Assembly: GCF_029263155.1 (NCBI RefSeq) | Contig: NZ_JAJCYB010000118.1 | Coordinates: forward strand, 1-64,000 | Source: Pseudonocardia sp. | GTDB lineage: Bacteria > Actinomycetota > Actinomycetes > Mycobacteriales > Pseudonocardiaceae | DNA: 64,000 nucleotides | Reading direction: 5' to 3' | In this document: positions 52,099-64,000 of the stretch, in pieces | How positions within the stretch are numbered: position 1 is the stretch's first letter | Layout of the letters: the number at the start of each line of letters is the position of its first letter | Notes under the pieces: model-generated | Databases searched by the model: none | Told to the model about the DNA's origin: nothing | The model's input: only the letters and a program-made list of their open reading frames with translations | Made by a program: the position numbers and the translations under genes

Positions 52099-52395
52099 TC
52101 ATCTGGCCCCAGGGTGACGGCTTGATCTGGCCCCACCTGCTGCTCGGGAGGGGTTGAGCTGTCGTCCTCGTCCGCCGCGGGGTTGAGCGGGGGCGTTCTC
52201 CAGAACCTGGGCCTGGCGGCGGCGATAGGCGGCTTGGCGGCAGGCCGGCGAGCAGAACCGTTGGCTGCTGCCTCGGGCGGGGGTCGAGTACAGCCCTTCG
52301 ACGCTCAGGATGGTGGTCCGACCGCAGCATTGGCATTGCAGCCCGGTCCGCTCAAGTCCGTCACTGTTGGGGGGTAGGGGGAAAGCGTCACGCAT
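52099..52395 (-). CDS. Small zinc-finger protein of the IS21 element
   Basis: A 98-residue protein with 'LQCQCCGRTTILSVEGLY' followed by 'QRFCSPACRQAAYRRRQAQV', four or more Cys in a C-x2-C/C-x3-C zinc-finger arrangement. It overlaps the istB 3' end by 8 bp (ATG inside the last codons) and its TGA lies within the terminal repeat of the element, so it is part of the transposon. Its role (regulation of transposition or end binding) is unknown. Confidence 0.6.
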   Translation of the reverse strand: MRDAFPLPPNSDGLERTGLQCQCCGRTTILSVEGLYSTPARGSSQRFCSPACRQAAYRRRQAQVLENAPAQPRGGRGRQLNPSRAAGGARSSRHPGAR

Positions 52396-53227
52396 TCCGG
52401 CCTCGTTGCCCGCGGGCGTGCGCAAGGCGGTAGCTGCTGGTCCCGGTCTCGATGATGTTCCCGCCGAAGGTCAGGCGGTCCACGATGGCGGCGCAGAGCC
52501 GTGGGTCGGTGAAGGTTTTGGTCCAGCCACTGAAGCTGTCGTTGCTGGCGATCGCGACTGCGGTCTTCTCCTCGCGTTCGGTCAGGACCTGGAAGAGCAA
52601 CTCGGCGCCGCGGCGGTCGAGTTCCATATAGCCCAGCTCGTCGAGGCAGAGCAGCTCGACCCGGCCGTAGCGGGCGATGGTCCGCGACAGCTGGCGTTCG
52701 TCGGCGGCTTCGACGAGCTCGTTCACCAGCTTCGCCGCGAGGACATAGCGGACCTTATGACCGGTCTGGGCTGCGGCGGTCCCGAGCCCGATGAGCAGGT
52801 GGCTCTTGCCGGTGCCGCTGTCGCCGATCAAGCACAAGGACTGGCCTTTGCTGACCCAGCCGCAGCCGGCCAGGGTGTTGATGGTGGCGGGGTTGATCGC
52901 GGGGTTCGCGGCGAAGTCGAAGTCCGCGAGGCTCTTGGGCCGGGGGAAGCCGGCTTCGGCGACCCGGCGGGCGGCGCGGCGTTGTTCACGGTCGTCGCAC
53001 TCGGCGAGCAGCAGTTCGGACAGGAACGCCCGGTAGGACAGGTGCTCACGTCCGGCGGCGTCGGCGAACTCGCCGTAGCGGTCCCGCAACGTCGGTAGGC
53101 GCAGCAGCCGGGTGGCGCTGTCGATCGCGGCGTCGATGGCCTGCTCGCTGGGTTGCCGGCCGGTGCTGTTCGGGCGTCGGGTCGCGCCGGTTGTGCTGGT
53201 GGTCGTCGTGCTTGTGGTGGCGGTCAT
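52388..53227 (-). CDS. istB: IS21-family helper ATPase IstB
   Basis: A 279-residue AAA+ protein. The first 25 residues are Thr/Ser-rich. Walker A is 'LIGDSGTGKSHLLIGLG', Walker B 'VELLCLDELGYMELD', sensor 'AVAIASNDSFSGW', and the C-terminal 'IVDRLTFGGNIIETGTSSYRL' is a DnaC-like signature. It assembles on target DNA and directs the IstA transposase. The ATG overlaps the istA stop (ATGA). It looks intact although istA is broken. Confidence 0.92.
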   Translation of the reverse strand: MTATTSTTTTSTTGATRRPNSTGRQPSEQAIDAAIDSATRLLRLPTLRDRYGEFADAAGREHLSYRAFLSELLLAECDDREQRRAARRVAEAGFPRPKSLADFDFAANPAINPATINTLAGCGWVSKGQSLCLIGDSGTGKSHLLIGLGTAAAQTGHKVRYVLAAKLVNELVEAADERQLSRTIARYGRVELLCLDELGYMELDRRGAELLFQVLTEREEKTAVAIASNDSFSGWTKTFTDPRLCAAIVDRLTFGGNIIETGTSSYRLAHARGQRGRNA

Positions 53228-54123
53228 GCGTCCCTCGTTCCGGTGAGCAGGCTGTCGTAGACCGCGACCGACGGTGGCGGTCGCAGATCGAGCGGGAGCT
53301 GGTCGGTCATCTCGGCCAGCCGGCGGGCCTGCAGGCTGACCACCACCGGATCGGTCGTTGCGGGGGCGGCGTGCTGCTGGGCGTGCTTGCGGGTCTCCAG
53401 AGCGACCACATCGGGGCTGACCGCGCCGACTCCCAGCGCGGCGGTGATGCCGGCGACGACGTCAGCGTGGGTGTGGTGGCGGTGCAGCAGCAGGACCTCG
53501 ACCAGGGCGCGGGTGCCGCCGCCGTCACCGTGGGCCTTGCGAGCCGCGGCCCAGAACGCCTCATGCGCGGCGGTGAACGTCCCGGCGGCCCTGGCCTGGA
53601 CCAGCGCGGTCGCGCCGCGCAGCGCACCGGGCTTACGGACCAGCACTTCCAGCTAGTGGTCGAGCACCAGCGTCTCGCTGCCCCGCACCCTCGCCCGTTC
53701 GTGGCGGGCGACCTCGGTGCGGCCGCTGAACAGCACCAGTTCCGAGGCATGCAGGACGCCCCGGATCTGATGGCCGATCAGCCGGGCCGGGACCGAGTAG
53801 AAGCACTGCCGGACGGTGACCCGGGAGTACCGGTCGACCCGCGGGGTCAACGCCAGACCGGTCTCGAACAGCTCGCTCGACAACGGCCGCAGCAAGGTCG
53901 CCTCGAACGCGAAGTGCTGCCCGACGCTCATCGTGCGGTTGCTGATCCGGCGGGCATCATCGGCCAGGTCGTAGCCGATCAGCAGCGCGTTGAGCTCGGC
54001 CACTGTGTCGACCTTGGGGACCGGGACCAGGTGGTTGCGGCGGAACCGGCCGCCCTCACCCTCCACCCCGCCCTTCTCGTGGGCGCCCTCGACGCCGGGA
54101 CGGCAGTAGAACGACTCGAAGCC
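53224..54123 (-). pseudogene. istA: istA, C-terminal part (split; in-frame TAG)
   Basis: This piece starts at 'GFESFYCRPGVEGAHEKGGVEGEGGRFRRNHLVPVP' (the DDE catalytic Glu region) and continues to 'HHTHADVVAGITAALG'. At 53653-53655 a TAG replaces the Tyr codon expected in 'LDHYLEVL', and the same frame continues afterwards to the true stop at 53224. The N-terminal part is at 57,997-58,695, on the other side of the inserted element. Confidence 0.85.
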
Positions 54124-54170
54124 ATGTTCTCTGAACTTGATCTTCAGAGGCTCGTTGCGGGCGTGTGCGT

Positions 54171-56633
54171 TCAGCCGCTCGTGGTGATCGGCGGGATACC
54201 GAGGTCGACGGTCGCCGGGCGGGCGCGGCGGTCGATCTGGGCGAGTTTGTCCTGAGCGCCGGCGAGGCTGACCTGCAGGCCCTCGACCTCGCCGAGCCAT
54301 CCCTCGCGTCGGGCTTCGGCGATGCGGGCGGTGAGGTTGTCGTGGATCTCGACCAGCCGCTGGCGTTGGGTGGGGTCGGGCCAGAGCATCGGGCAGCGGA
54401 TGCAGGCGTGTTCGTGGATGCAGGGGGTGGCGAACGCGCGTCCGCAGGTTCCGGTGGAGACCTTGCGGCGTTCGAAGTGGCCGAGGAACTCGGTCCACTC
54501 CTCGTCGGTGGGGACGCGGTATTCCTCGCCGGGGCGCAGGGCGCGGCGGCGGGCGAGCAGCGCGAGGTGGGCCGCGATGGCTTCCTCGGGGTAGATCGCC
54601 TTGTAGCCGAGGGTGACGTTGATGTCCTGGTGGCCGGCGATGAGCTGGGCGATGTGCGGTGGTAGCCCGGCGAGGATGGCGTCGGTGATGAACAGGCGCC
54701 GGAAGTCGTGCGGGGTGAAGCGCAGCGGCCCGCCGGTGGCCGGGTCGATCAGCCCGGTGTGGGCCAGGGCGGCGGTGAGCATGTCGCGGATCACCTGGGC
54801 GGTGATCGGGCGGTGTTCGAAGCCGTAGCGGCGCTGGAACAGCAGCGGCATCGGCGGTGACCAGGCGCGTTCGCCGCTGTCGTAGGCGGCGATCAGCGGG
54901 ATCGCGCCGGTGTGGTCGCGGACCCGGGAGATGATCGCGGAGAGCACGTCGGCGAGCTCGGGGCTGACCAGCAGCAGCCGTTCGGTGTCGGTCTTGGACG
55001 GGGTGATCTGCAGCAGCGGGACGACCTCGCCGGTGCTGGGCAGCCGGTATTGGACCAGGCTGTGGTGGGTCAGCTCGGTGAGTTCCTCGATCCGGACGCC
55101 GGTGGCGCGTAGCACCTCGACTGCGGCGAACGCCCAGAACGCGTACTCCTCCTCGCGGTGCAGGTCCCGGCGTTGGCCGGTGACAGGGTCCTCGGCCCAG
55201 ACCTTCGTGGGGGCCGACCGGGCCGGGGCGACCCGCCGCAGGGTCTGACCGGCGGCGGTGAACGACTCGTCGGGCGCGGTGGCGATGGCCGCGGCGAGCA
55301 GCGCAGCGGCGTCGCGGCGGCGTCGATCGACGCAACCGACCAGGACCGGCAGCACGGGTAGCCGTTCCCGGGTCCGGGCGTCCATCCGGGACTTGCGGTG
55401 CCGTTTGTCCTTGCGCCGGTTGATCTCCTCGCTGCCGACCGGACAGCGCAGGACCCAGGGTCCCCAGCGGGCCGGGTCCTCGACCGCCCAGTGGGCCAGA
55501 TCCAGGTAGAACGCCCGCACCGGGGTGAGGCACTCGCGGTAGTTGATCCGCGCCGTGCGGGTCTGGACCCGACGACCGTCCGGGCCGCGGGTGGTCGTGG
55601 TGACCGTGCGCAGCCGCTGCTTCCAGCCCTCGGCGACATCGGCGGGCAGGGCCAGGCTGTCGATGCCGGGATGGTGGCGTTCCAGGTCCGCCCAGAACAG
55701 CTTGCCCAGGTAGTTGGCGAGAGACTCGAGGCTGTTGTAGTCCAGGGCGGGTTGGCGTTCGCGCAGGTAGTCCACCAGCAGCTCGCGGATCGGGCCGCAG
55801 ACCAGCCGGTAGCGGTCGATCATCTCCTCGGGGCGCAGCTGGCCCCGGGTCCGCAGCTCGCGCAGCGTGGCCGGCGCGTCGTCGCCGAGCACCCCCATGG
55901 TGTGCAGCACCCGGTAGAACAGATGCGTGGCGCCGACCGCGGTGCCGTGCGCGGCCGCCTCGACCTCCAGCAGCTCGACCACGTCACCGGTGGTGATCTC
56001 GGCCAGCGTGCCTCCCTTGGCCGCCAGGATCAGCGCGGCCCGGTAGGCGGTGCGGGTCGCCGCCGCCGGGGAGATGTCCGGGTCGGCGCAACACAACGCC
56101 CGCAACCGGGCGAACCCGTCGGCATCGCGGCACCGGGCCAACATGTTGACCAGCGAGCTGCTGTGGAATCGGGCGACGACCAGCCAGCCCGGTGAGGGCC
56201 GGATCAGGTCCGCGGCGATCGTGGCCTGCAGCGCCTTGAAGAACGCGTCGTGGTGCCAGCGGGCGTGGTGGCCGCGCTCGCGCAGCCAGGCGATCGGGAC
56301 CTCCCGCCAGGTCCGGCCCGCGGTGTCGACGCCGCTGGCCAGCCACCGGTCCTGCCAGGTCGCCCCCGGCTGGGCCCCCAGCCAGTCCAGCAGCAGCCCC
56401 AGCCCGCGCCCGTAGGCGCCCGGATGCCGCCCGCGCGCGCCGCGTTCGACGAACGGTGGCCCGGTCAGCCGCTCCCAGACCGTTGCGCGCTCCGCGCCGG
56501 TCACCGCCCAGCCCGAGCCCGCCGTTCGGGCGAGGAGCCCGGCGGTCACCGGCAGCGGCAGCGTCGTCGACGTCGACGGGGCCGAGGCCGGGACCCGTTC
56601 GGCGAGCACCGGCGCCGTCACGGTCAGGCTCAT
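54171..56633 (-). CDS. Large tyrosine recombinase, TnpB-like
   Basis: An 820-residue protein. The long N-terminal region (about 400 residues) is mostly helical; the C-terminal recombinase domain holds the catalytic set: Arg in 'ATGVRIEELTELTHH', His-x-x-Arg in 'FTPHDFRRLFITDAI', His in 'IAGHQDINVTLGYKAIYP' with Tyr following. A Cys-rich segment 'CGRAFATPCIHEHACIRCPM' could bind zinc. ATG 56633 overlaps the stop of the preceding recombinase (TGATG). It matches TnpB of Tn554-like elements in size and order. Confidence 0.85.
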   Translation of the reverse strand: MSLTVTAPVLAERVPASAPSTSTTLPLPVTAGLLARTAGSGWAVTGAERATVWERLTGPPFVERGARGRHPGAYGRGLGLLLDWLGAQPGATWQDRWLASGVDTAGRTWREVPIAWLRERGHHARWHHDAFFKALQATIAADLIRPSPGWLVVARFHSSSLVNMLARCRDADGFARLRALCCADPDISPAAATRTAYRAALILAAKGGTLAEITTGDVVELLEVEAAAHGTAVGATHLFYRVLHTMGVLGDDAPATLRELRTRGQLRPEEMIDRYRLVCGPIRELLVDYLRERQPALDYNSLESLANYLGKLFWADLERHHPGIDSLALPADVAEGWKQRLRTVTTTTRGPDGRRVQTRTARINYRECLTPVRAFYLDLAHWAVEDPARWGPWVLRCPVGSEEINRRKDKRHRKSRMDARTRERLPVLPVLVGCVDRRRRDAAALLAAAIATAPDESFTAAGQTLRRVAPARSAPTKVWAEDPVTGQRRDLHREEEYAFWAFAAVEVLRATGVRIEELTELTHHSLVQYRLPSTGEVVPLLQITPSKTDTERLLLVSPELADVLSAIISRVRDHTGAIPLIAAYDSGERAWSPPMPLLFQRRYGFEHRPITAQVIRDMLTAALAHTGLIDPATGGPLRFTPHDFRRLFITDAILAGLPPHIAQLIAGHQDINVTLGYKAIYPEEAIAAHLALLARRRALRPGEEYRVPTDEEWTEFLGHFERRKVSTGTCGRAFATPCIHEHACIRCPMLWPDPTQRQRLVEIHDNLTARIAEARREGWLGEVEGLQVSLAGAQDKLAQIDRRARPATVDLGIPPITTSG

Positions 56634-57925
56634 CACCCACCACCGCCGAAGAGGACCTGCAGCGTCTCGGGTCGGTAGCCCGGTGCAGGGGCGGGTCGGG
56701 CTCGTTCGGCGGCTCGGCGGGTCTGCTCGTCGTGGTGGGCAAGCACCCGACGGATCACTTCCTCCTTGCGTGGGGTCAGGTAGATCTGGGTGGTCGAGAG
56801 CTGGGCGTGTCCCAGGACGAACTGGACGTCGGTCAACGGCAGGGCGGGGTCCTCGGCCATCCGGTAGGCCGCGGTGTGTCGCAGCGCGTGCAACGTCACC
56901 GCCCCCGGCCCAGCGCCGATCCCAGCGCCGATCCCAGCGGCGGTCCCCGCCCCGCCCGCCGTGCCGTGAGCGCGGGTGACGGCGCGCTCGAACATGCGGT
57001 GCGCCGCGTGATAGGTCAGCGGCCGCGGCGGGCGGCGCGAGGTCCACCACAGCGGCTGATGGCGCCCGATCGGGATCGCTCCCTCCATCTCCAGCTGGTA
57101 GAGCCGCAACCACACGAACGCGTCGCTGGACGCGGGCAGCAGCGCCACCTCGCGGCTGCCCTTGCGGATCACCGAGACCGTCTGCCGGCCCGGGTCGACA
57201 TCGCGCTGTGTCACCGACAACAGCTCCGATGCCCGGGCCCCGGTCGAGACGTAGAACGCGACCAACGCCCGGTCCCGGTGCGATGAGAGCCGGGCGAAGA
57301 TCTCGTTGAACTCCGCGTCCGGGACGCTGCGCGGCAGCCGCGCCGGCACCGCCGGCCGGTAGCGCCCCGAGCGCTGGTCACGGAACGGCTCCATCGGGTT
57401 GTGATGGGCATGCGCTCGCCGGCCCCGCCGCGAGCGGTCCAGCGGGAACGGGTTGACGATCGGCCCGCTGCCCGCGTCGAGGTGGAACTCGTAGAAGCCG
57501 CGCAGCACCGTCTCGTTGTGCGCGCGCACCGACGCCGCATACGGTCGCCGGCCGCGCGCAGCCACCGTCGCGCCGCCGGTGTCCGTGCTCGCCGACCCGT
57601 CGCGGCGGCGCCAGTGCGGTCGCGGCGGCTTGCCCGCGATCTGCAGCCAACGGCAGAAATCACGGGCCTCGACCCGCGTCGCACGCTCCCAACCGACCCC
57701 GAGCGCCCACAAGAACCGCAACCACCGCAACAGGTCCAGCCCGTAGGAGCGGGCCGTGGCCGGTGACCGACCCGCCGCCTGCAAGTCCCGCAGGAACGCC
57801 GAGACCGCCTCCACCTCGTGGCCGTCGGCGTCGAGGAGCCGGAACGGCTCCCACTCATCACCGGTGGCGCTCAGCCGCCCGACCTGGGGCACCACCAACG
57901 CGGCGAGGTCCGTGGACTCCTGCAT
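56633..57925 (-). CDS. Tyrosine recombinase, TnpA-like
   Basis: A 430-residue integrase. The core-binding domain is at about residues 35-100 ('SPATARSYGLDLLRWLRFLWALG'). Catalytic residues are Arg in 'STGARASELLSV', His-x-x-Arg in 'TLHALRHTAAYRM', His in 'LGHAQLSTTQIYL', Tyr in IYL. A Gly/Ala repeat ('GTAAGIGAGIGAGPGA') interrupts the catalytic domain near residue 340, caused by a short tandem DNA repeat. It is the first gene of the recombinase pair. Confidence 0.87.
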   Translation of the reverse strand: MQESTDLAALVVPQVGRLSATGDEWEPFRLLDADGHEVEAVSAFLRDLQAAGRSPATARSYGLDLLRWLRFLWALGVGWERATRVEARDFCRWLQIAGKPPRPHWRRRDGSASTDTGGATVAARGRRPYAASVRAHNETVLRGFYEFHLDAGSGPIVNPFPLDRSRRGRRAHAHHNPMEPFRDQRSGRYRPAVPARLPRSVPDAEFNEIFARLSSHRDRALVAFYVSTGARASELLSVTQRDVDPGRQTVSVIRKGSREVALLPASSDAFVWLRLYQLEMEGAIPIGRHQPLWWTSRRPPRPLTYHAAHRMFERAVTRAHGTAGGAGTAAGIGAGIGAGPGAVTLHALRHTAAYRMAEDPALPLTDVQFVLGHAQLSTTQIYLTPRKEEVIRRVLAHHDEQTRRAAERARPAPAPGYRPETLQVLFGGGG

Positions 57926-57996
57926 GGCTGCCTCAACGACCGACCTCCCAAATGGTCACTGAGCTGCGGAAACGTCGCCAGTAGTTCAGTCAACGG

Positions 57997-58695
57997 GTAG
58001 TGGGACCGGAACGCCACCCAGCGGGTCGATTCGGTGCGGGTCCGGCCGAACAACACCCGCGACACCGCGGCCTTGAGGTTGTCGTAGCGGATGTGGAACA
58101 TCGGGGTCCCGCCGAACACCTCGAACGCCGCCTAGTGGCCCTCCAGGAACGCCTCCTGACCCTGGGTGGCGTAGGCGCGGTGCACCGCCTTGCCCGAGAA
58201 CGACAGCCGCATGGTGAACAAGAAGACCTTCGTCCGGACCCCGGCCAGATCGATCCACAGATCCGCGAAGTCGACCTCACCCTCGGCGCCGGGCTCGTGG
58301 GTCTGTGGCACGAACGCGTCCTCGACACCCTTGCCCGCGGCAGCCCAGATCTCGGGCCGGCGCTTCGCGACGTAGTCCCGCACCGCCGAGTACGTCAGGT
58401 CGTTCAGCTCGTGCTCATCGACGAGCCGCGCCAGGACCCGGCGGGCGGTGTGGCGCTGCTTGCGCGGCGCGGTCAGGTCCTCAGTCAGCATCGCGTCGAT
58501 CAGGGCCTTCGCCGGAGCCAGCTTCGGCGCCACCCGCACCGGGGTCTTGCGCTCGGGCGGGACCGCGTTCGCCAGGGCCTGCCGGACCGTCCGCCGATGC
58601 ACCCCGTACTTGTCCGACAGAGCCCGCACCGACAACTGCTCGATCCGGTCGTCGCGACGTATCGCCTCGAACAACTCCACCTTCGACCTCGCCAC
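57997..58695 (-). pseudogene. istA: istA, N-terminal part (split; in-frame TAG)
   Basis: GTG 58695 opens 'SKVELFEAIRRDDRIEQLSVRALSDKYGVHRRTVRQALA' (HTH for terminal repeats), then the DDE core begins with 'EVDFADLWIDLAG'. A TAG at 58132-58134 follows 'QEAFLEGH', after which the frame continues ('AAFEVFGGTPMFHIRYDNLKAAVSRVLFG') to 'FRSHY', where the Tn554-like element begins. With two stops and the insertion it cannot make full-length IstA. Confidence 0.87.
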
Positions 58696-58957: not shown

Positions 58958-60016
58958 TCAACCCTTGCGAGGCTCGACCAGTGGACTGCGGCCGCCCTCC
59001 CCGACGGCAGGGGCAAGCGGGTGCGGCTCGCCACACAGCGCGGCGAGCGCGGCAGCGACCTCGGTGATGTCCGCGCGCACATAGGTCGAGGTGACGCCGA
59101 CGTCCCGGCTGCCGTTGTGCCCCGCGTAGGCCCGAGCGACCGCGTAGCCGGCGTTCCGTTCCACCCACGTCAAGGTCGTGTGCCGCAACCAGTGCGTGGA
59201 GACCTGCTGCGTCCGCACCCAAGCAAGATGCAGCCCCAGCCGCTGCCACAGGTGATCGTATCGGCGGGCACTGATCGGACGTCCCGACCGGTAGCGAAGG
59301 AGCGGACCGTCAACAGAGCCACCACGCTCGGCGTTGTGCTCGCGCAGCCGACGCATCAACGTGGGCGAGACCGGCTGCCAGCGGACGGTCTCCCCCTTCT
59401 CCCGCAGCCGGATCAGGCACTGCTCGACATCGAGATCCGACCGCCGCAGGGCCAGTGCCCCACCGCGCCGGGCCGCGGTCTCGGTGTGCAGCCGGAGCAG
59501 CAACATGTCCAGGTCCGGATCGTTGCCGGTCGATCCCGCGACGTCGTTGATCTCGGCGAGCCGCGCGTCGGGAAGGGCACGGCGCGTGCTCGCCAGCCTC
59601 CTCGGCTTCGCGACCGCCGTTGCCGGATTCCGCTCAGCGCGGATCAGGCCGTCCGCGACCGCATGGCGGTAGAGGCAGCGCAGTGCCCCGATCAGGTGCT
59701 CGGCCGCCGTCCTGCCACCGCGTGAGTTGCGACGGACCACGGCCTCCGACTTGATCTGCTCGGCAAGCTCTTGGATCTCGGTGGGTGTCGGCTCGTCGAG
59801 CCGTCGATGACCCCACATCTCGGATACGCGGCGCCAGTAGGTCCCGTACACCCGGTGCGCTCCGGGCGACACGGCCACCGCGACCAGGTCGACGTACTCG
59901 GCAATCGTCGGCATGCGCGTCGAGCGATGGGAGCCACCTTCGCCCAGCAGCTCCTCAGGCGAGATACCCAGCTGGTCGAGCAGCGCACGGACTGTGTCGA
60001 GCCGGTTCGCAGTCAC
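58958..60016 (-). CDS. Tyrosine recombinase/integrase (copy 2)
   Basis: A 352-residue integrase, paralogous along its length to copy 1 ('HRVYGTYWRRVSEMWGHRRLDEPTPTEIQEL'). Catalytic residues: Arg in 'ETAARRGGALALR', 'STHWLRHTTLTWVERN', His in 'AYAGHNGS', Tyr in 'STYVRAD'. The GTG start overlaps the stop of the AbrB-like gene (GTGA). It points toward copy 1, so the two modules face each other around the cargo and IS21 region. It may recombine its own site or be a decayed duplicate; no disabling change is seen. Confidence 0.86.
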   Translation of the reverse strand: MTANRLDTVRALLDQLGISPEELLGEGGSHRSTRMPTIAEYVDLVAVAVSPGAHRVYGTYWRRVSEMWGHRRLDEPTPTEIQELAEQIKSEAVVRRNSRGGRTAAEHLIGALRCLYRHAVADGLIRAERNPATAVAKPRRLASTRRALPDARLAEINDVAGSTGNDPDLDMLLLRLHTETAARRGGALALRRSDLDVEQCLIRLREKGETVRWQPVSPTLMRRLREHNAERGGSVDGPLLRYRSGRPISARRYDHLWQRLGLHLAWVRTQQVSTHWLRHTTLTWVERNAGYAVARAYAGHNGSRDVGVTSTYVRADITEVAAALAALCGEPHPLAPAVGEGGRSPLVEPRKG

Positions 60017-60489
60017 CAGCGACCTCCGGCACGCGTGCCGAGCACGGACAACTCCGCGAGTACCATCCGCTCGACGGCTGCGGCCGTGCAGATGACGAGC
60101 GTGCCGGTGCCCGTCCAGGCCACGATGAGCAGACGTGCGCCGGCCTCGATTCGGCACCGCCGCCGGACGGCGAGCGGTATCTGGAGATGCCCCTGGCTCG
60201 TGATCGACGACGTGCTGCCGTCCGCCGTGACCACGACCACGGCGTTGCTCTGAACGTCGAACCGGGTCACGGTCTGCCGGGACCATCCCAGGTGTCGAAG
60301 CGGCGAGCGATCCGCGATCCGACCTGCCCGATCGGGCGTCGTGGTCACGCAGAGCGGCGGCTCCCGGGCAGGCAGCCGATTCGACTCAGGGATCCGCTGC
60401 AGCCTCACCGGTACGTCACCGCCAGGCTCGCCGCCATTCAACTCGTGCGGCACTCGCCGGGCACCGACCTCGGGTGCTCGGTGCTGCAT
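60013..60489 (-). CDS. AbrB/MazE-like DNA-binding protein, recombinase-linked (copy 2)
   Basis: 158 residues. The core matches copy 1 in order: 'RAGRIADRSPLRHLGWS' followed by the hairpin 'GHLQIPLAVRRRCRIEAGARLLIVAWTGTGTLVI', the AbrB-like swapped-hairpin pattern. The first 50 residues are not conserved between the copies. Coupled to integrase copy 2 by GTGA. The fixed pairing in both modules suggests the small protein regulates or directs the recombinase. Confidence 0.6.
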   Translation of the reverse strand: MQHRAPEVGARRVPHELNGGEPGGDVPVRLQRIPESNRLPAREPPLCVTTTPDRAGRIADRSPLRHLGWSRQTVTRFDVQSNAVVVVTADGSTSSITSQGHLQIPLAVRRRCRIEAGARLLIVAWTGTGTLVICTAAAVERMVLAELSVLGTRAGGRW

Positions 60490-60571
60490 GCTGCCTCCTC
60501 AGGACCGATCTGCGACAAAGGCTCGCGGCGGCGGTGACCTGTTCCGTTGTCAGCGTGCTGCTGTGGCGTGG

Positions 60572-61099
60572 TCATGGCGAGCCGTGCGGCCCGCGCGGCC
60601 TGTGAAGATCACAAACCGCCGACCTGTCGGGGGCGGTCGCGCGGGAGTGCTGACCTGGGGGCTCCCACCGGTGAGCGGCCCGGAGCGGGGTCGTACCGGC
60701 GACTGCGCCGATGCGTGACCACGACAGACCGGCGAACCGTGCCGCCTGTACGGCGGCCTCGAGTCGTTCCTCGACGTCGGCGAGCTGCCTGGCGAGGTCG
60801 TGGACGGCGAGTTCGGGCAGGACGCGGTCGAGGTGGCGCTCCCACTCGGCGAATGCGGCGGTGCCGGTCTCCCAGCCGTCGACGCCGTCGGGGGCGCTGC
60901 CGGTGCGGCTGGGCCATTCGCTGCGCGGGTAAAACTCCATGCCCCGCCAGCCGCACTCGCACGCCGAGCGCCAGCCGATCACCTCGGAGGCGGTGCGGGC
61001 CGAGGAACTGGCGGTCTCGGTGCCGTCGAGCAGGACCGATACCGGGTAGCCGGTGTGGTCGTAGGCTGGCGCGTACCCGGTGTCGTGGACCCATGCCAT
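60572..61099 (-). CDS. Hypothetical element protein with C-terminal HTH-like segment
   Basis: 175 residues. N-terminal 'MAWVHDTGYAPAYDHTGYPVSVLLDG' and a Cys-containing 'RSACECGWRGMEFYP'; the C-terminal 'QAARFAGLSWSRIGAVAGTTPLRAAHRW' looks like a helix-turn-helix. I do not recognise the family. The ATG has GGAAGGG about 9 bp upstream. It lies upstream of the AbrB/integrase module on the same strand and overlaps the 3' end of the next upstream gene in another frame. Confidence 0.6.
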   Translation of the reverse strand: MAWVHDTGYAPAYDHTGYPVSVLLDGTETASSSARTASEVIGWRSACECGWRGMEFYPRSEWPSRTGSAPDGVDGWETGTAAFAEWERHLDRVLPELAVHDLARQLADVEERLEAAVQAARFAGLSWSRIGAVAGTTPLRAAHRWEPPGQHSRATAPDRSAVCDLHRPRGPHGSP

Positions 61100-61614
61100 G
61101 CCGCTTCACCCTTCCGCGCGCTGCGCCCCTGATTGCGGCCTCGATGCAGGATCCGGTGACGGGTCGGCGGCAGCGTGGTCGATCCGTTGTCGGCCCGACC
61201 ACGGATCGACCACCGGATTGCCGCGCTCGGTTGCACCGAGAGGACCTGGACCAGCGCAAGTGCGGGATCGAAGGCGACGCTGCTCAACAACCCTTGGTGC
61301 TCGCGGCCGGGCAGCCCGGTCAGGTGCGCTGAGGCGCCGCCGGACCTCCTCGCCGATCGACCCGAACAGGGCGAGTGGCGTACCGGGGAATCGGGGTCGA
61401 CGACGCGGACGCCCTCGTCGGTCCGGATGCGGCACAGCGCCCGCCCGTCGCGGTGCGACCAGGCAGGCACCGGACCGTCGGCGACCTTCCAGTAGCCGGG
61501 AGCCCGAGCCCGAACTGCCCGTCGACAAACCGGACAGCAGAAGTTCTCCACCAGCTGCCAGCGCCGCTCCTCACGCGCGGCCCGGCCGGCGATCACCACG
61601 CGGCGGATCGTCAC
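60979..61614 (-). CDS. Hypothetical Cys-containing element protein
   Basis: From GTG 61614 (preceded by GAGGAGG) the first 60 residues look like a real small zinc-ribbon-like protein: 'VENFCCPVCRRAVRARAPGYWKVADGP', then 'AWSHRDGRALC'. The later part of the 211-codon frame is low-complexity and crosses the palindrome at 61,174-61,214 before stopping inside the 60,572-61,099 gene, so the natural product may be shorter or the 3' half may be noncoding. No family recognised. Confidence 0.4.
   Translation of the reverse strand: MTIRRVVIAGRAAREERRWQLVENFCCPVCRRAVRARAPGYWKVADGPVPAWSHRDGRALCRIRTDEGVRVVDPDSPVRHSPCSGRSARRSGGASAHLTGLPGREHQGLLSSVAFDPALALVQVLSVQPSAAIRWSIRGRADNGSTTLPPTRHRILHRGRNQGRSARKGEAAWHGSTTPGTRQPTTTPATRYRSCSTAPRPPVPRPAPPPR
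61174..61214. promoter_or_regulatory. CGTGGTC-box dyad site 2
   Basis: Boxes CGTGGTC (61174) and CGTTGTC (61185) on one strand face GACCACG (61197) and GACCACC (61208). Boxes in each arm start 11 bp apart, and the arms are inverted around a 5-bp centre. The same box and phasing occur at 61,668-61,724. It lies about 75 bp upstream of the gene starting at 61,099. Confidence 0.6.
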
Positions 61615-61667
61615 CGAAGCCTCCTCGAACGACGGGTGACCACCTTGGCGCTCGCGGGTGGCTGAGC

Positions 61668-61724
61668 CGTGGTCGATACGTGGTCGCACGCACGCGGCCG
61701 CGGCGTGACCACGCAACGACCACG
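61668..61724. promoter_or_regulatory. CGTGGTC-box dyad site 1
   Basis: CGTGGTC at 61668-61674 and 61679-61685 faces GACCACG at 61707-61713 and 61718-61724. Each pair is spaced 11 bp, one helical turn, with 21 bp between the inner boxes. It lies in the divergent gap between the gene starting at 61,614 and the secretion operon starting at 61,781, the expected place for an operator, or for an origin of transfer. Confidence 0.65.
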
Positions 61725-61780: not shown

Positions 61781-62350
61781 ATGACGGCAGCTGCAGAGAC
61801 GCCCCGGGCGTGGGCGACACGCCACGAGTCACGTTCGGAACGGCGGACCCGGCTGTCGGTCGCGGGCGTCGCGGGCGGGGTCGGCGCGACCACCGTCGCG
61901 ACCGCGATCGGCGCCGCCGACCGCGGCGTGTACGTCGGTCGTGCGGTGGACGTGCTGGTGTGCCGAGCCACCGGCGACTCCCTGATCCGCGCCGGACGCG
62001 CCGCCCAACTCGTCGCCGCCGCGACCGGCCGCAAGCCGGTACTGGCGATCACGGCAGCCGACGCGTCGGGCCCGAGCCGCCCGGTGACCGCGCGGCTACG
62101 CCTGCTGGAGCCACACGCGGCCGCGGTCATCGTGCTGCCGTTCGTCCGCCGCTGGCGCGAGCTCGCCGTCCCGCTCGACGAGGTCCGCGGCCTGCTCGCC
62201 GTGCCACGCACCGAGCTGCCCCGCAGCCTGCGCCGCTACGCCGACGCCGCCCACGACCTGCGCGCCGCGCTGGACACCCGCTCCCCGGCCGCGGCCCGCC
62301 CGATCCCCGGGCGGGCCGCCCACACCTCGACACTCAGGAGAACCCCATGA
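61781..62350 (+). CDS. P-loop-like protein of the conjugation operon
   Basis: 189 residues. 'LSVAGVAGGVGATTVATAIGAAD' resembles the deviant Walker A of ParA/CpaE proteins but has no Lys in GGVGATT; 'VDVLVCRATGDSLIRAG' and 'PVLAITAAD' follow. Nucleotide binding is therefore uncertain. ATG 61781 is chosen because GGGAGG precedes it. The stop overlaps the next start (ATGA). It is the first of four coupled genes; the role may be in conjugation or partition. Confidence 0.6.
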   Translation: MTAAAETPRAWATRHESRSERRTRLSVAGVAGGVGATTVATAIGAADRGVYVGRAVDVLVCRATGDSLIRAGRAAQLVAAATGRKPVLAITAADASGPSRPVTARLRLLEPHAAAVIVLPFVRRWRELAVPLDEVRGLLAVPRTELPRSLRRYADAAHDLRAALDTRSPAAARPIPGRAAHTSTLRRTP

Positions 62351-62610
62351 ACCTCGCCAGCGTGCCCAACCCCGCACCCGTGGCGCCGCCGGGACTCGGT
62401 GAGCTCGCCGGCGAGCTGCTCGGCTGGCTCAAGTGGGGAGTGATCGTCGCCGGGGTGCTCGGGATCTTCATCTGCGCGCTGATGCTGATCATCGGGCGGC
62501 GCAACCGGTCGGCCACCGCCTACGAGGGCCTCGTCGGGTCGGCCTGGGTGATCGGCGGCCTCGCGCTCGCATCGGTCGCCGCACTGTTGGTCGGGGCGTT
62601 CCAGATATGA
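62347..62610 (+). CDS. Small two-TM protein, pilin/TrbC-VirB2-like position
   Basis: 87 residues with two hydrophobic segments ('WGVIVAGVLGIFICALMLIIG' and 'AWVIGGLALASVAALLVGAF') separated by a short polar loop. Size and topology suit VirB2/TrbC-like pilins or a small secretion-complex component; sequence alone does not decide. Overlaps both neighbours by ATGA, so it is translationally coupled within the operon. Confidence 0.6.
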   Translation: MNLASVPNPAPVAPPGLGELAGELLGWLKWGVIVAGVLGIFICALMLIIGRRNRSATAYEGLVGSAWVIGGLALASVAALLVGAFQI

Positions 62611-63206
62611 GCCGCCTCCGCCCCTCCCTGTGCCTGGCCGCGGTCCTCACCGCGACGCTCGGCTGCGCGACCGCACCACCAGCCTCCGACGTCGCCCCGG
62701 ACCTGGTGGTGCTGGTGGCCGTGCCGGGCGGGGTCGCCGCATCGTCGCAGCGGTACGGCCCGTTCCACGAGTTCGACGGCCGGGCGATCGGGTTTAGCCA
62801 CGACGAGCTGGGGGCCGCCCTCGCTGCTACCCACATCGGACCGCGCGTCACCGCGGCCGCCGATACCCCCGTCGTGGAAGCAACGCTGGAGCAGCAGTGC
62901 TGGGGCGAGGTCGCAGCCGCCCGGGAGCGTCTGGCAACGACGCTGCCCCGCCCGGACACAGCCGTACACGAAGACCTCACCCCGAGCACCATGTACTTCC
63001 GGGTGATCGCCGGGGACGCCGGCGGCGACCACGTCGTGGTGTCCTTGCTGGCCGACACCGCGCAGTCCCGGACGATGGGCGGCTACTCCCGCGTGGATGC
63101 CGCCCTGCGCTGGGTCGGCGACGACTGGCAGCTGCGTGTACCCGTCCGACGCCCGAACCTGCATCCGGACACCACCGGCTACCGGCTGCTGGGGCCGACG
63201 CCATGA
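62607..63206 (+). CDS. Conjugation-operon lipoprotein
   Basis: 199 residues with a lipoprotein signal ('LCLAAVLTATLGC', Cys near residue 20) and a soluble domain ending in 'RWVGDDWQLRVPVRRPNLHPDT', a pattern seen in NTF2-like/VirB8-type conjugation proteins of actinobacteria. Probably surface-anchored. Coupled to both neighbours (ATGA). The family is tentative. Confidence 0.6.
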   Translation: MSRLRPSLCLAAVLTATLGCATAPPASDVAPDLVVLVAVPGGVAASSQRYGPFHEFDGRAIGFSHDELGAALAATHIGPRVTAAADTPVVEATLEQQCWGEVAAARERLATTLPRPDTAVHEDLTPSTMYFRVIAGDAGGDHVVVSLLADTAQSRTMGGYSRVDAALRWVGDDWQLRVPVRRPNLHPDTTGYRLLGPTP

Positions 63207-64000
63207 CCGCGCTCGCACAGCCCGCCCAGGAATGCGGCACGTTCGACCTGGGCTGCCAGACCGGGCAGGCCATCGGATCGGCGTTCCAGGGCATCGTGGC
63301 CGAGGTCGCCCGCGGCGCCGCGGAGCTGGTCGTGACCACCGCGACGTGGTGGGTCGAGACCGACAGCATCGATCCCCGCGACCCTGCCGTCGCCGCCGCG
63401 CAGGACGCCACCCGCGAGCTGATCCTGATCATCCTCGTCGGGTCGGTGCTGGTGCAGTCGATCCGGATCATCCTCTCCCGCAAGGGCGAGCCGCTGGTCA
63501 TGGTCGCGACCGGGCTCATCCGCTTCGCGGTGGTGTCCGCCCTCGGTCTCGTGGCCCTGGAGATCGCGTTGCGCGCGGGGGACGCCTTGGCGAGCCAGCT
63601 TCTTGACGGCGCCGCGAGCAACTTCGCGCTGCTGATGGAAGACGTCCTCGTCGACGGGGATGCCACGTTCCTGGTGCTGCTGGTGTCGCTGATCGCCGCG
63701 GTGCTCTCGCTCGTGCAGTGGGTGCTGATGGCAATGCGCCAGGCCGGGCTGCTGGTGCTGGCCGCGATGCTCCCGCTGGCCGCGTCCGGGTCGCTGACCC
63801 GCTCCACACGGGGCTGGCTGGACAAGATCATGGTGTGGCTGCTCGCCATGGTCGCCTACAAGCCCGCGGCCGCGTTCATCTACTACATCGGGTTCTCCTA
63901 CCTGTCCTCCCCGAACGCCGCCCACGCCGGGAACGCCGGCACCATGATCACCGGGATCATGGTGCTGCTGCTCGCGGTGATCGCGATGCCGGTGCTGCTG
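63203..64000 (+). CDS. TrbL/VirB6-like integral membrane protein (partial)
   Basis: The reading frame is open from ATG 63203 to the window end. It has 'FDLGCQTGQAIGSAFQGIVAEVARGAAELVVTTATWWV' (typical of actinobacterial TrbL-like N-termini), then at least five membrane segments ('ELILIILVGSVLVQSIRIIL', 'VLVLLVSLIAAVLSLVQWVLMAMRQAGLLVLAAMLPLAAS', 'IMVLLLAVIAMPVLL'). It is a probable polytopic core of a type IV secretion system. The C-terminus is outside the window. Confidence 0.8.
   Translation, partial: MTALAQPAQECGTFDLGCQTGQAIGSAFQGIVAEVARGAAELVVTTATWWVETDSIDPRDPAVAAAQDATRELILIILVGSVLVQSIRIILSRKGEPLVMVATGLIRFAVVSALGLVALEIALRAGDALASQLLDGAASNFALLMEDVLVDGDATFLVLLVSLIAAVLSLVQWVLMAMRQAGLLVLAAMLPLAASGSLTRSTRGWLDKIMVWLLAMVAYKPAAAFIYYIGFSYLSSPNAAHAGNAGTMITGIMVLLLAVIAMPVLL

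Follow-up and report, generated by a model that had tools for sequence, protein, structure and literature searches.

Tandem arrays of the heptamer GACCACG (CGTGGTC on the opposite strand) look, on comparison of related elements, like conserved control sequences placed before the DNA-transfer genes of Pseudonocardia mobile elements. Two such sites, A and B, lie close to the conjugation operon in the stretch of 64,000 nucleotides analyzed here as a whole (the window), and in place of dyads we prefer to see in them tandem heptamer arrays set back to back, each usually facing a gene. That the arrays are operators of a transfer regulon is very probable; to the whole reading, in which these operators are read most likely by a LysM–BTAD protein, we would assign a rough probability of 0.5. 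The features in question are as follows.

61,668–61,685, plus strand: left array of site A, CGTGGTC-GATA-CGTGGTC, whose GACCACG reading faces the minus-strand gene at 61,614
61,707–61,724, minus strand: right array of site A, GACCACG-CAAC-GACCACG, facing gene A and the T4SS operon
61,174–61,191, plus strand: array of site B on the side of the 61,099 minus-strand gene, CGTGGTC-GATC-CGTTGTC, second box with one mismatch
61,197–61,214, minus strand: opposite array of site B, GACCACG-GATC-GACCACC, outer box with one mismatch
60,545–60,573, plus strand: possible degraded third site, CGTTGTC (60,545) and CGTGGTC (60,567), 22 bp apart
61,781–62,350, plus strand: gene A, which opens the conserved T4SS (conjugation) operon
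62,347–64,000, plus strand: continuation of the T4SS operon, which runs off the window
61,318–61,614, minus strand: small CPVC-type gene starting at 61,614, with 74–99 aa conserved in relatives and an uncertain 3′ end
60,572–61,099, minus strand: small gene of 175 aa, downstream of site B, with a C-terminus that is HTH-like by eye

The earlier note had described two dyads built from the same CGTGGTC box. In site A all four boxes are exact, with CGTGGTC at 61,668 and 61,679, GACCACG at 61,707 and 61,718, and an inner gap of 21 bp; site B keeps the geometry (61,174/61,185 facing 61,197/61,208, inner gap 5 bp) but not the exactness, its second and fourth boxes reading CGTTGTC and GACCACC. The right array of site A lies 57–74 bp upstream of the likely start of gene A at 61,781, and 75 bp separate the proximal array of site B from the start codon of the 61,099 gene. 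No −10-like or other promoter element was located. Single boxes are mildly enriched in the 64-kb window (47 vs. 27.8 expected, a number reached by none of 100 shuffles). If up to one mismatch is allowed, pairs of boxes at 11 bp are found four times in the 64 kb, and these are exactly the four half-sites of A and B; in 60 third-order Markov simulations the mean was 0.18 such places, no run had more than 1, and a facing dyad did not arise.

The possible third site lies upstream of an open reading frame with an excisionase-resembling start, and may be compared with the boxes at L191:2669 before an intact excisionase. This frame (60,013–60,489), earlier called AbrB-like, had no match in a Pfam scan up to E 1; its first residues (MQHRAPEV...GEPGG-VPVRL-RIP) resemble by eye the start of the intact L191 excisionase, as though the frame were a disrupted excisionase gene. 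Elsewhere in the window, genes at 52,388–58,695 resemble transposition genes by eye (IstB-like, tyrosine-recombinase-like, and an IstA fragment), and their neighbor at 58,958–60,286 is an integrase with a Pfam Phage_integrase match.

First, the motif is conserved before the same genes in relatives, where its absence would have counted against the earlier note. Gene A has relatives at E 1e-10 in 46 of 62 Pseudonocardia genomes and one weak match in plasmid records, and the operon continues after it with an 87-aa membrane protein, a 199-aa lipoprotein-like protein, and then a protein that weakly matches TrbL_4 and the SCO6881 family. Among 41 T4SS upstream regions (40 of the 76 gene A matches, plus the window), 27, the window included, contain exact boxes and 14 contain none. 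The nature of the array emerges from the spacings in 24 boxed loci (L104, L119, and L138, whose box layout repeats that of other loci, being left out): 25 of 34 same-direction spacings of up to 50 bp equal 11, 22, or 33 bp, and opposite-direction spacings have no clear 11-bp period, so helical phasing is a property of the direct array and not of the dyad. Three or four consecutive exact boxes at 11 bp stand in L103, L105, and L107, with a mismatched fifth in L107, and some T4SS loci have direct arrays only, of three to five boxes. The gap between facing arms is 21 bp in the window and 17 bp in the paralogue G000:C66. A dyad acting as one palindromic operator is rejected, since arm gaps differ between close copies and some loci dispense with the second arm altogether. 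What survives of the earlier proposal is that the secretion operon and the small divergent genes probably have a regulator of their own, without the dyad as its functional unit. The nearest boxes at T4SS promoters read toward the gene in 17 of the 24 loci and away from it in 7; as with the other box and promoter counts, these come from related lineages and are not independent.

Why, then, does the window have two sites? The DNA at about 60.7–61.2 kb aligns with L105 and L107, where a gene of the 61,099 type adjoins the operon, and that at 61.2–61.8 kb aligns with L101 and L102, where a gene of the 61,614 type does so; L099 covers both segments, with a gap. The window thus looks mosaic, combining a promoter type that ends at the 61,099 gene with another that starts at 61,614, so that each small divergent gene has its own array, and this would account for the pair of sites. 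It is tempting to regard the product of 60,572–61,099 itself as a local regulator, as its gene is adjacent and divergent to the operon in several relatives, its C-terminus appears HTH-like, and site B lies 75 bp upstream. We consider this very unlikely. Relatives at E 1e-5 are confined to 13 of 62 genomes, with none in boxed genomes such as G021 and G037, and in G034, G055, and G027 the gene seems to be frameshifted or split, although assembly error is possible there; a Pfam scan of the product was without a match. At the level of individual loci, the gene next to the operon is apparently frameshifted or split in L082, L083, L107, and L120, and the boxes upstream of the operon persist.

Second, the arrays are not confined to the T4SS promoter. 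Box pairs stand upstream of a Tad-like pilus operon in L161, L163, L173, L180, and L183; before the operon of a NikA-like gene and relaxase in L191 and, 246 bp upstream and reading away, in L179; and before the excisionase–integrase genes in L191. In L168, a pair occurs about 160 bp before the excisionase, inside the called end of the relaxase gene. Small mobilizable elements also carry arrays, and a small integrase cluster (L159, G001:C1:536000-545500) has three successive gene units each with an upstream array. A fourth array lies at 1,690–1,718 of the same stretch, in which T4SS genes are absent as far as it was read. Separately, the T4SS operon, the Tad-like pilus operon, and the relaxase are joined in one stretch in L177, L179–L180, L187, L193, and L266–L267, and in such joined elements (L177, L187, and others) the Tad-like operon genes are CpaF-, TadB/C-, and TadE-like by eye.

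By our home-made gene caller, which was trained on Pseudonocardia and missed gene A in some loci, 82 of 91 non-redundant box pairs in the fetched loci are intergenic. This proportion is an overestimate, since genes escape the caller and the motif itself guided the choice of many loci; in L144 and L148, at least, a pair overlaps a start codon (M-T-T). Pairs lie within 160 bp of 22 of 737 non-redundant gene starts, the nearest array facing the gene in 17 of the 22 and pointing away in 5 (p 0.017), with some of the latter preceding a divergent gene. The array reads toward the gene at all 13 Tad promoters examined; five of the seven family-1 promoters among them were motif-chosen (L159–L175 having been fetched for their box pairs, L180 and L183 not).

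These positions bear on whether the repeats are instead a partition, replication-iteron, or oriT site, as the earlier note's suggestion of a partition-type complex would have it. Phased repeats can occur at such sites, boxes are also found before relaxase operons, and gene A has a sub-threshold Pfam match to the MinD/ParA-like family CBP_BcsQ (E 0.15). Yet the arrays recur at several promoters of one element, mostly 50–150 bp from start codons, among the eight window proteins scanned by Pfam none matched Rep or ParB, and the Rossmann/P-loop-like fold matches of gene A are weak. We find no positive evidence for a partition complex and regard this whole class of explanation as highly improbable; the relaxase complex proposed alongside it is somewhat more likely, in the form of a NikA-like relaxosome protein that is the main rival reader (see below).

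Third comes the frequency of the motif elsewhere. By the earlier note, an equal frequency in unrelated chromosomal coding DNA would have refuted its proposal; in the 62 genomes of the genus there are 188 exact box pairs against 6 for the reversed control, many of the 188 being one EF-Tu coding sequence. About one pair per genome, among the matches listed, is GACCACGGCAAGACCACG or a close variant. This recurrent CGTGGTC-TTGC-CGTGGTC, whose complement reads DHGKTT, the EF-Tu P-loop, is a coding coincidence to be masked in scans. In a sample of 298 genomes of the order, a triple array with one mismatch allowed was found in 5, our own included, against 3 for the reversed control, and so there is no sign of the array outside the genus in that sample.

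The genomic background also informs the possibility that the reader is a response regulator, of the host or the element, or another winged-helix factor. Direct repeats of 7 bp with 4-bp spacers are the standard OmpR/PhoB format, Mycobacterium tuberculosis PhoP being an example in the accessible text of PMC4832192. The arrays share this 7+4-bp layout but differ in heptamer sequence, and no receiver domain or kinase was noticed in the stretches of the elements that were read. In several genomes, moreover, the EF-Tu coding sequence is the only exact pair among the matches listed, so that nothing in them points to a host regulon built on exact tandem boxes. Together with the concerted change of box in sister elements described next, which suggests a reader encoded by the element, this makes such a factor unlikely, at roughly the level of the NikA-like protein.

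Fourth, related elements keep the layout and exchange the seven-letter word, an exchange suggestive of a dedicated regulator with an altered reading code. The T4SS loci comprise 24 of family 1 (GACCACG), 5 of family 2, and 2 of family 3, with 7 other boxless loci left out. All five family-2 T4SS loci have a facing GTTCCCC/GGGGAAC pair at the equivalent place, and all four family-2 Tad promoters have GGGGAAC arrays with 3- to 5-bp spacers, the word having first been found at the T4SS promoter and then sought elsewhere; GGGGAAC is likewise present in the stretch upstream of the family-2 relaxase and, in three elements, about 90 bp before an excisionase-like gene. The NGCGAAC arrays of family 3 have the same layout at both of its Tad promoters, from which the word was defined post hoc, so that this agreement is not independent; exact NGCGAAC was found in neither of the two family-3 T4SS operons within 350 bp upstream, and the family is a weaker case than GGGGAAC. 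In all, the array matches the family at each of the 13 Tad promoters, none of which has an exact box belonging to a different family; among the T4SS promoters, an exact family-3 heptamer stands in 1 of the 24 of family 1. Upstream of the family-2 relaxases, strong palindromes that are possible oriT features occur in L187 (about 4.3 kb, GTAGACC-TTC-GGTCTAC) and L194 (about 5.9 kb, GGAACC-GGGG-GGTTCC).

Which protein would read this code? At slightly below even odds, we favor a LysM/SARP-like winged-helix/BTAD protein of the Tad operon, mainly because the SARP-type 7+4 geometry matches the arrays. The protein has 983–1067 aa, with LysM near the N-terminus and, at the C-terminus, a BTAD match that is below the Pfam cut-off in four of five copies scanned and absent in the fifth; Pfam winged-helix models had no match in these five copies. 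Hydropathy predicts membrane helices in the three copies analyzed, an arrangement that would place LysM outside and the C-terminus inside. Profile comparison of the last 280 residues with the BTAD regulators of three genus genomes gave a probability of 93.5% (P 2.4e-7) over 198 columns, which take in most of the winged-helix region, as against 0.1% for the NikA-like control. A PDB sequence search with the SARP-like part returned no useful match, and plasmid records returned two, annotated as LysM proteins.

The LysM–BTAD protein is present in 21 of 62 genomes, namely in 15 of the 16 whose T4SS is boxed and in 6 of the remaining 46, some of which have a T4SS promoter that was never fetched; the one boxed genome without it, G049, is an assembly of about 560 contigs. 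Both a family-1 copy (G000:C13) and a family-2 copy (G000:C126) are encoded in the genome of the window. In 30 loci the putative recognition helix reads RHA-Y-AR in 23, RRAVAEAR in 3 (family 2), RRTIAE-R in 3 (family 3), and otherwise in 1, the box family having been read from promoters in only part of these loci. Two genomes depart from the pattern: G019 has a boxed mobilizable element and no LysM–BTAD protein, and G011 has boxed elements and only the family-2 protein, so that a helper element or another reader is needed in both. SetCD-style, helper-dependent control of mobilizable elements would also explain these two cases. A weakness of the LysM–BTAD protein as reader is that its loci in other genera showed no clear array. 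Of 149 other genomes sampled in the order, 18 have the protein, and no triple array of 10–11-bp period lies outside called genes in 12 such loci, a survey in which the Tad promoters were not located one by one and the gene caller was the Pseudonocardia-trained one. In L311 a doubtful GC-rich repeat, with a period of 12 bp, lies before the Tad genes where no gene was called; it is probably coding-like chance.

The chief competitor is a NikA-like ribbon–helix–helix (RHH) relaxosome protein, which would bind boxes near oriT and repress its own and other transfer operons. We think it unlikely. Its gene lies directly upstream of the relaxase in 11 listed loci; in L179 the downstream relaxase matches PF03432 (E 3e-7), and in the other loci it is recognized by sequence pattern. 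The assignment itself draws on a weak Pfam match (E 7.7e-5, 23.2 bits vs. a cut-off of 27) and a match to PDB NikA 2ba3 (E 5.4e-4). Of 23 loci with a Q-type strand (QV-VRF and similar), 20 have an exact box in the 300 bp upstream, as against none of 7 loci with other strands (Fisher p 6e-5), in classes that were defined after seeing the data on RHH genes collected by profile search. The protein is also present in the minimal G019 element and with the boxed G011 elements, in genomes without the family-1 LysM–BTAD protein.

Against it, RHH dimers usually read near-symmetric sites, which the heptamers, being asymmetric and directional, are not. The SARP-like helix agrees with the box family too, and the NikA-like protein co-varies with the boxes about as well. 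In G001, the small integrase cluster carries arrays without any NikA-like gene among those called in its 9.5 kb, and the AlphaFold model of the monomer is poor, with a mean pLDDT of 72, three helices, and no strand. Precedents for RHH accessory proteins are available, to the extent covered by the accessible text of the sources: both are small DNA-binding proteins encoded beside the relaxase; MobC of RA3 autoregulates (PMC4175270), and SmpO of pWBG749 binds dyad-symmetric GNNNNC sites with a strand-determined specificity that one residue can switch (PMC8136818). As described there, MobC and SmpO sites are at oriT or at the protein's own promoter, whereas the boxes here span four promoter classes and several elements.

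Returning to the LysM–BTAD protein, its relation to known regulators can be specified further. SARPs are small soluble proteins or have a SARP–LAL layout; the candidate reader, at about 1000 aa, with LysM and predicted membrane anchoring, is for these reasons not filed as a canonical SARP. On the DNA side, the operators of PimR and of classical Streptomyces SARPs are two or three heptamer direct repeats with 4-nt spacers, along with a 3-nt variant, as far as the accessible text of PMC5930380 extends. The arrays are alike in being heptamer direct repeats, those at family-2 and family-3 Tad promoters mixing 3- and 4-bp spacers with a single 5-bp spacer in family 2, and differ in serving the conjugation genes of mobile elements where SARP operators serve antibiotic clusters.

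SetCD, an FlhDC-like protein, offers a second comparison. This transfer activator of SXT/R391 works through an operator shared within the element, controls int and xis, and has sites in an unrelated mobilizable island (PMC4344509, in its accessible part); the likeness is in one transfer activator with a common operator, and the differences are in protein class and in a 19-bp site vs. heptamer arrays. Overall, the two sites noted earlier are genuine and part of something more general, which looks like an operator code for a transfer regulon and would be a variant on the known heptamer-array type. Among the literature matches listed, judged by title and the start of the abstract, on Pseudonocardia or actinobacterial T4SS and Tad elements, LysM–BTAD proteins, and SARPs in conjugation, we found no description of the system, nor any account of how transfer switches on in such actinobacterial T4SS elements.

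Taken as a mechanism, the working unit would be the direct GACCACG array with a spacing of one helical turn, usually facing the gene it serves, and a divergent promoter would set two arrays back to back, giving the appearance of a dyad. As the same arrays recur on the T4SS, Tad-pilus, relaxase, and excisionase/integrase promoters and on co-resident mobilizable elements, one factor could switch them together. The LysM–BTAD membrane protein would perhaps activate transfer when its outer LysM part senses peptidoglycan; binding, activation, and the signal are what we infer, starting from the arrays, their positions, the box change, the co-occurrence, and the profile similarity that are observed. 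The full picture, in which a peptidoglycan-sensing membrane SARP-like activator turns on mating apparatus, pilus, relaxase, and excision, the heptamer and the recognition helix have changed in concert, and mobilizable elements tap the code, is a tentative proposal with the odds somewhat against it.

Finally, a shared heptamer code would provide a testable regulon and a sequence route to the mobilizable passengers of these elements. The three families form a natural series, across which the operator seems to have shifted jointly with its reader. If the proposal is true, gene transfer would be tied to the state of the cell wall by a LysM sensor joined to a SARP-like domain.
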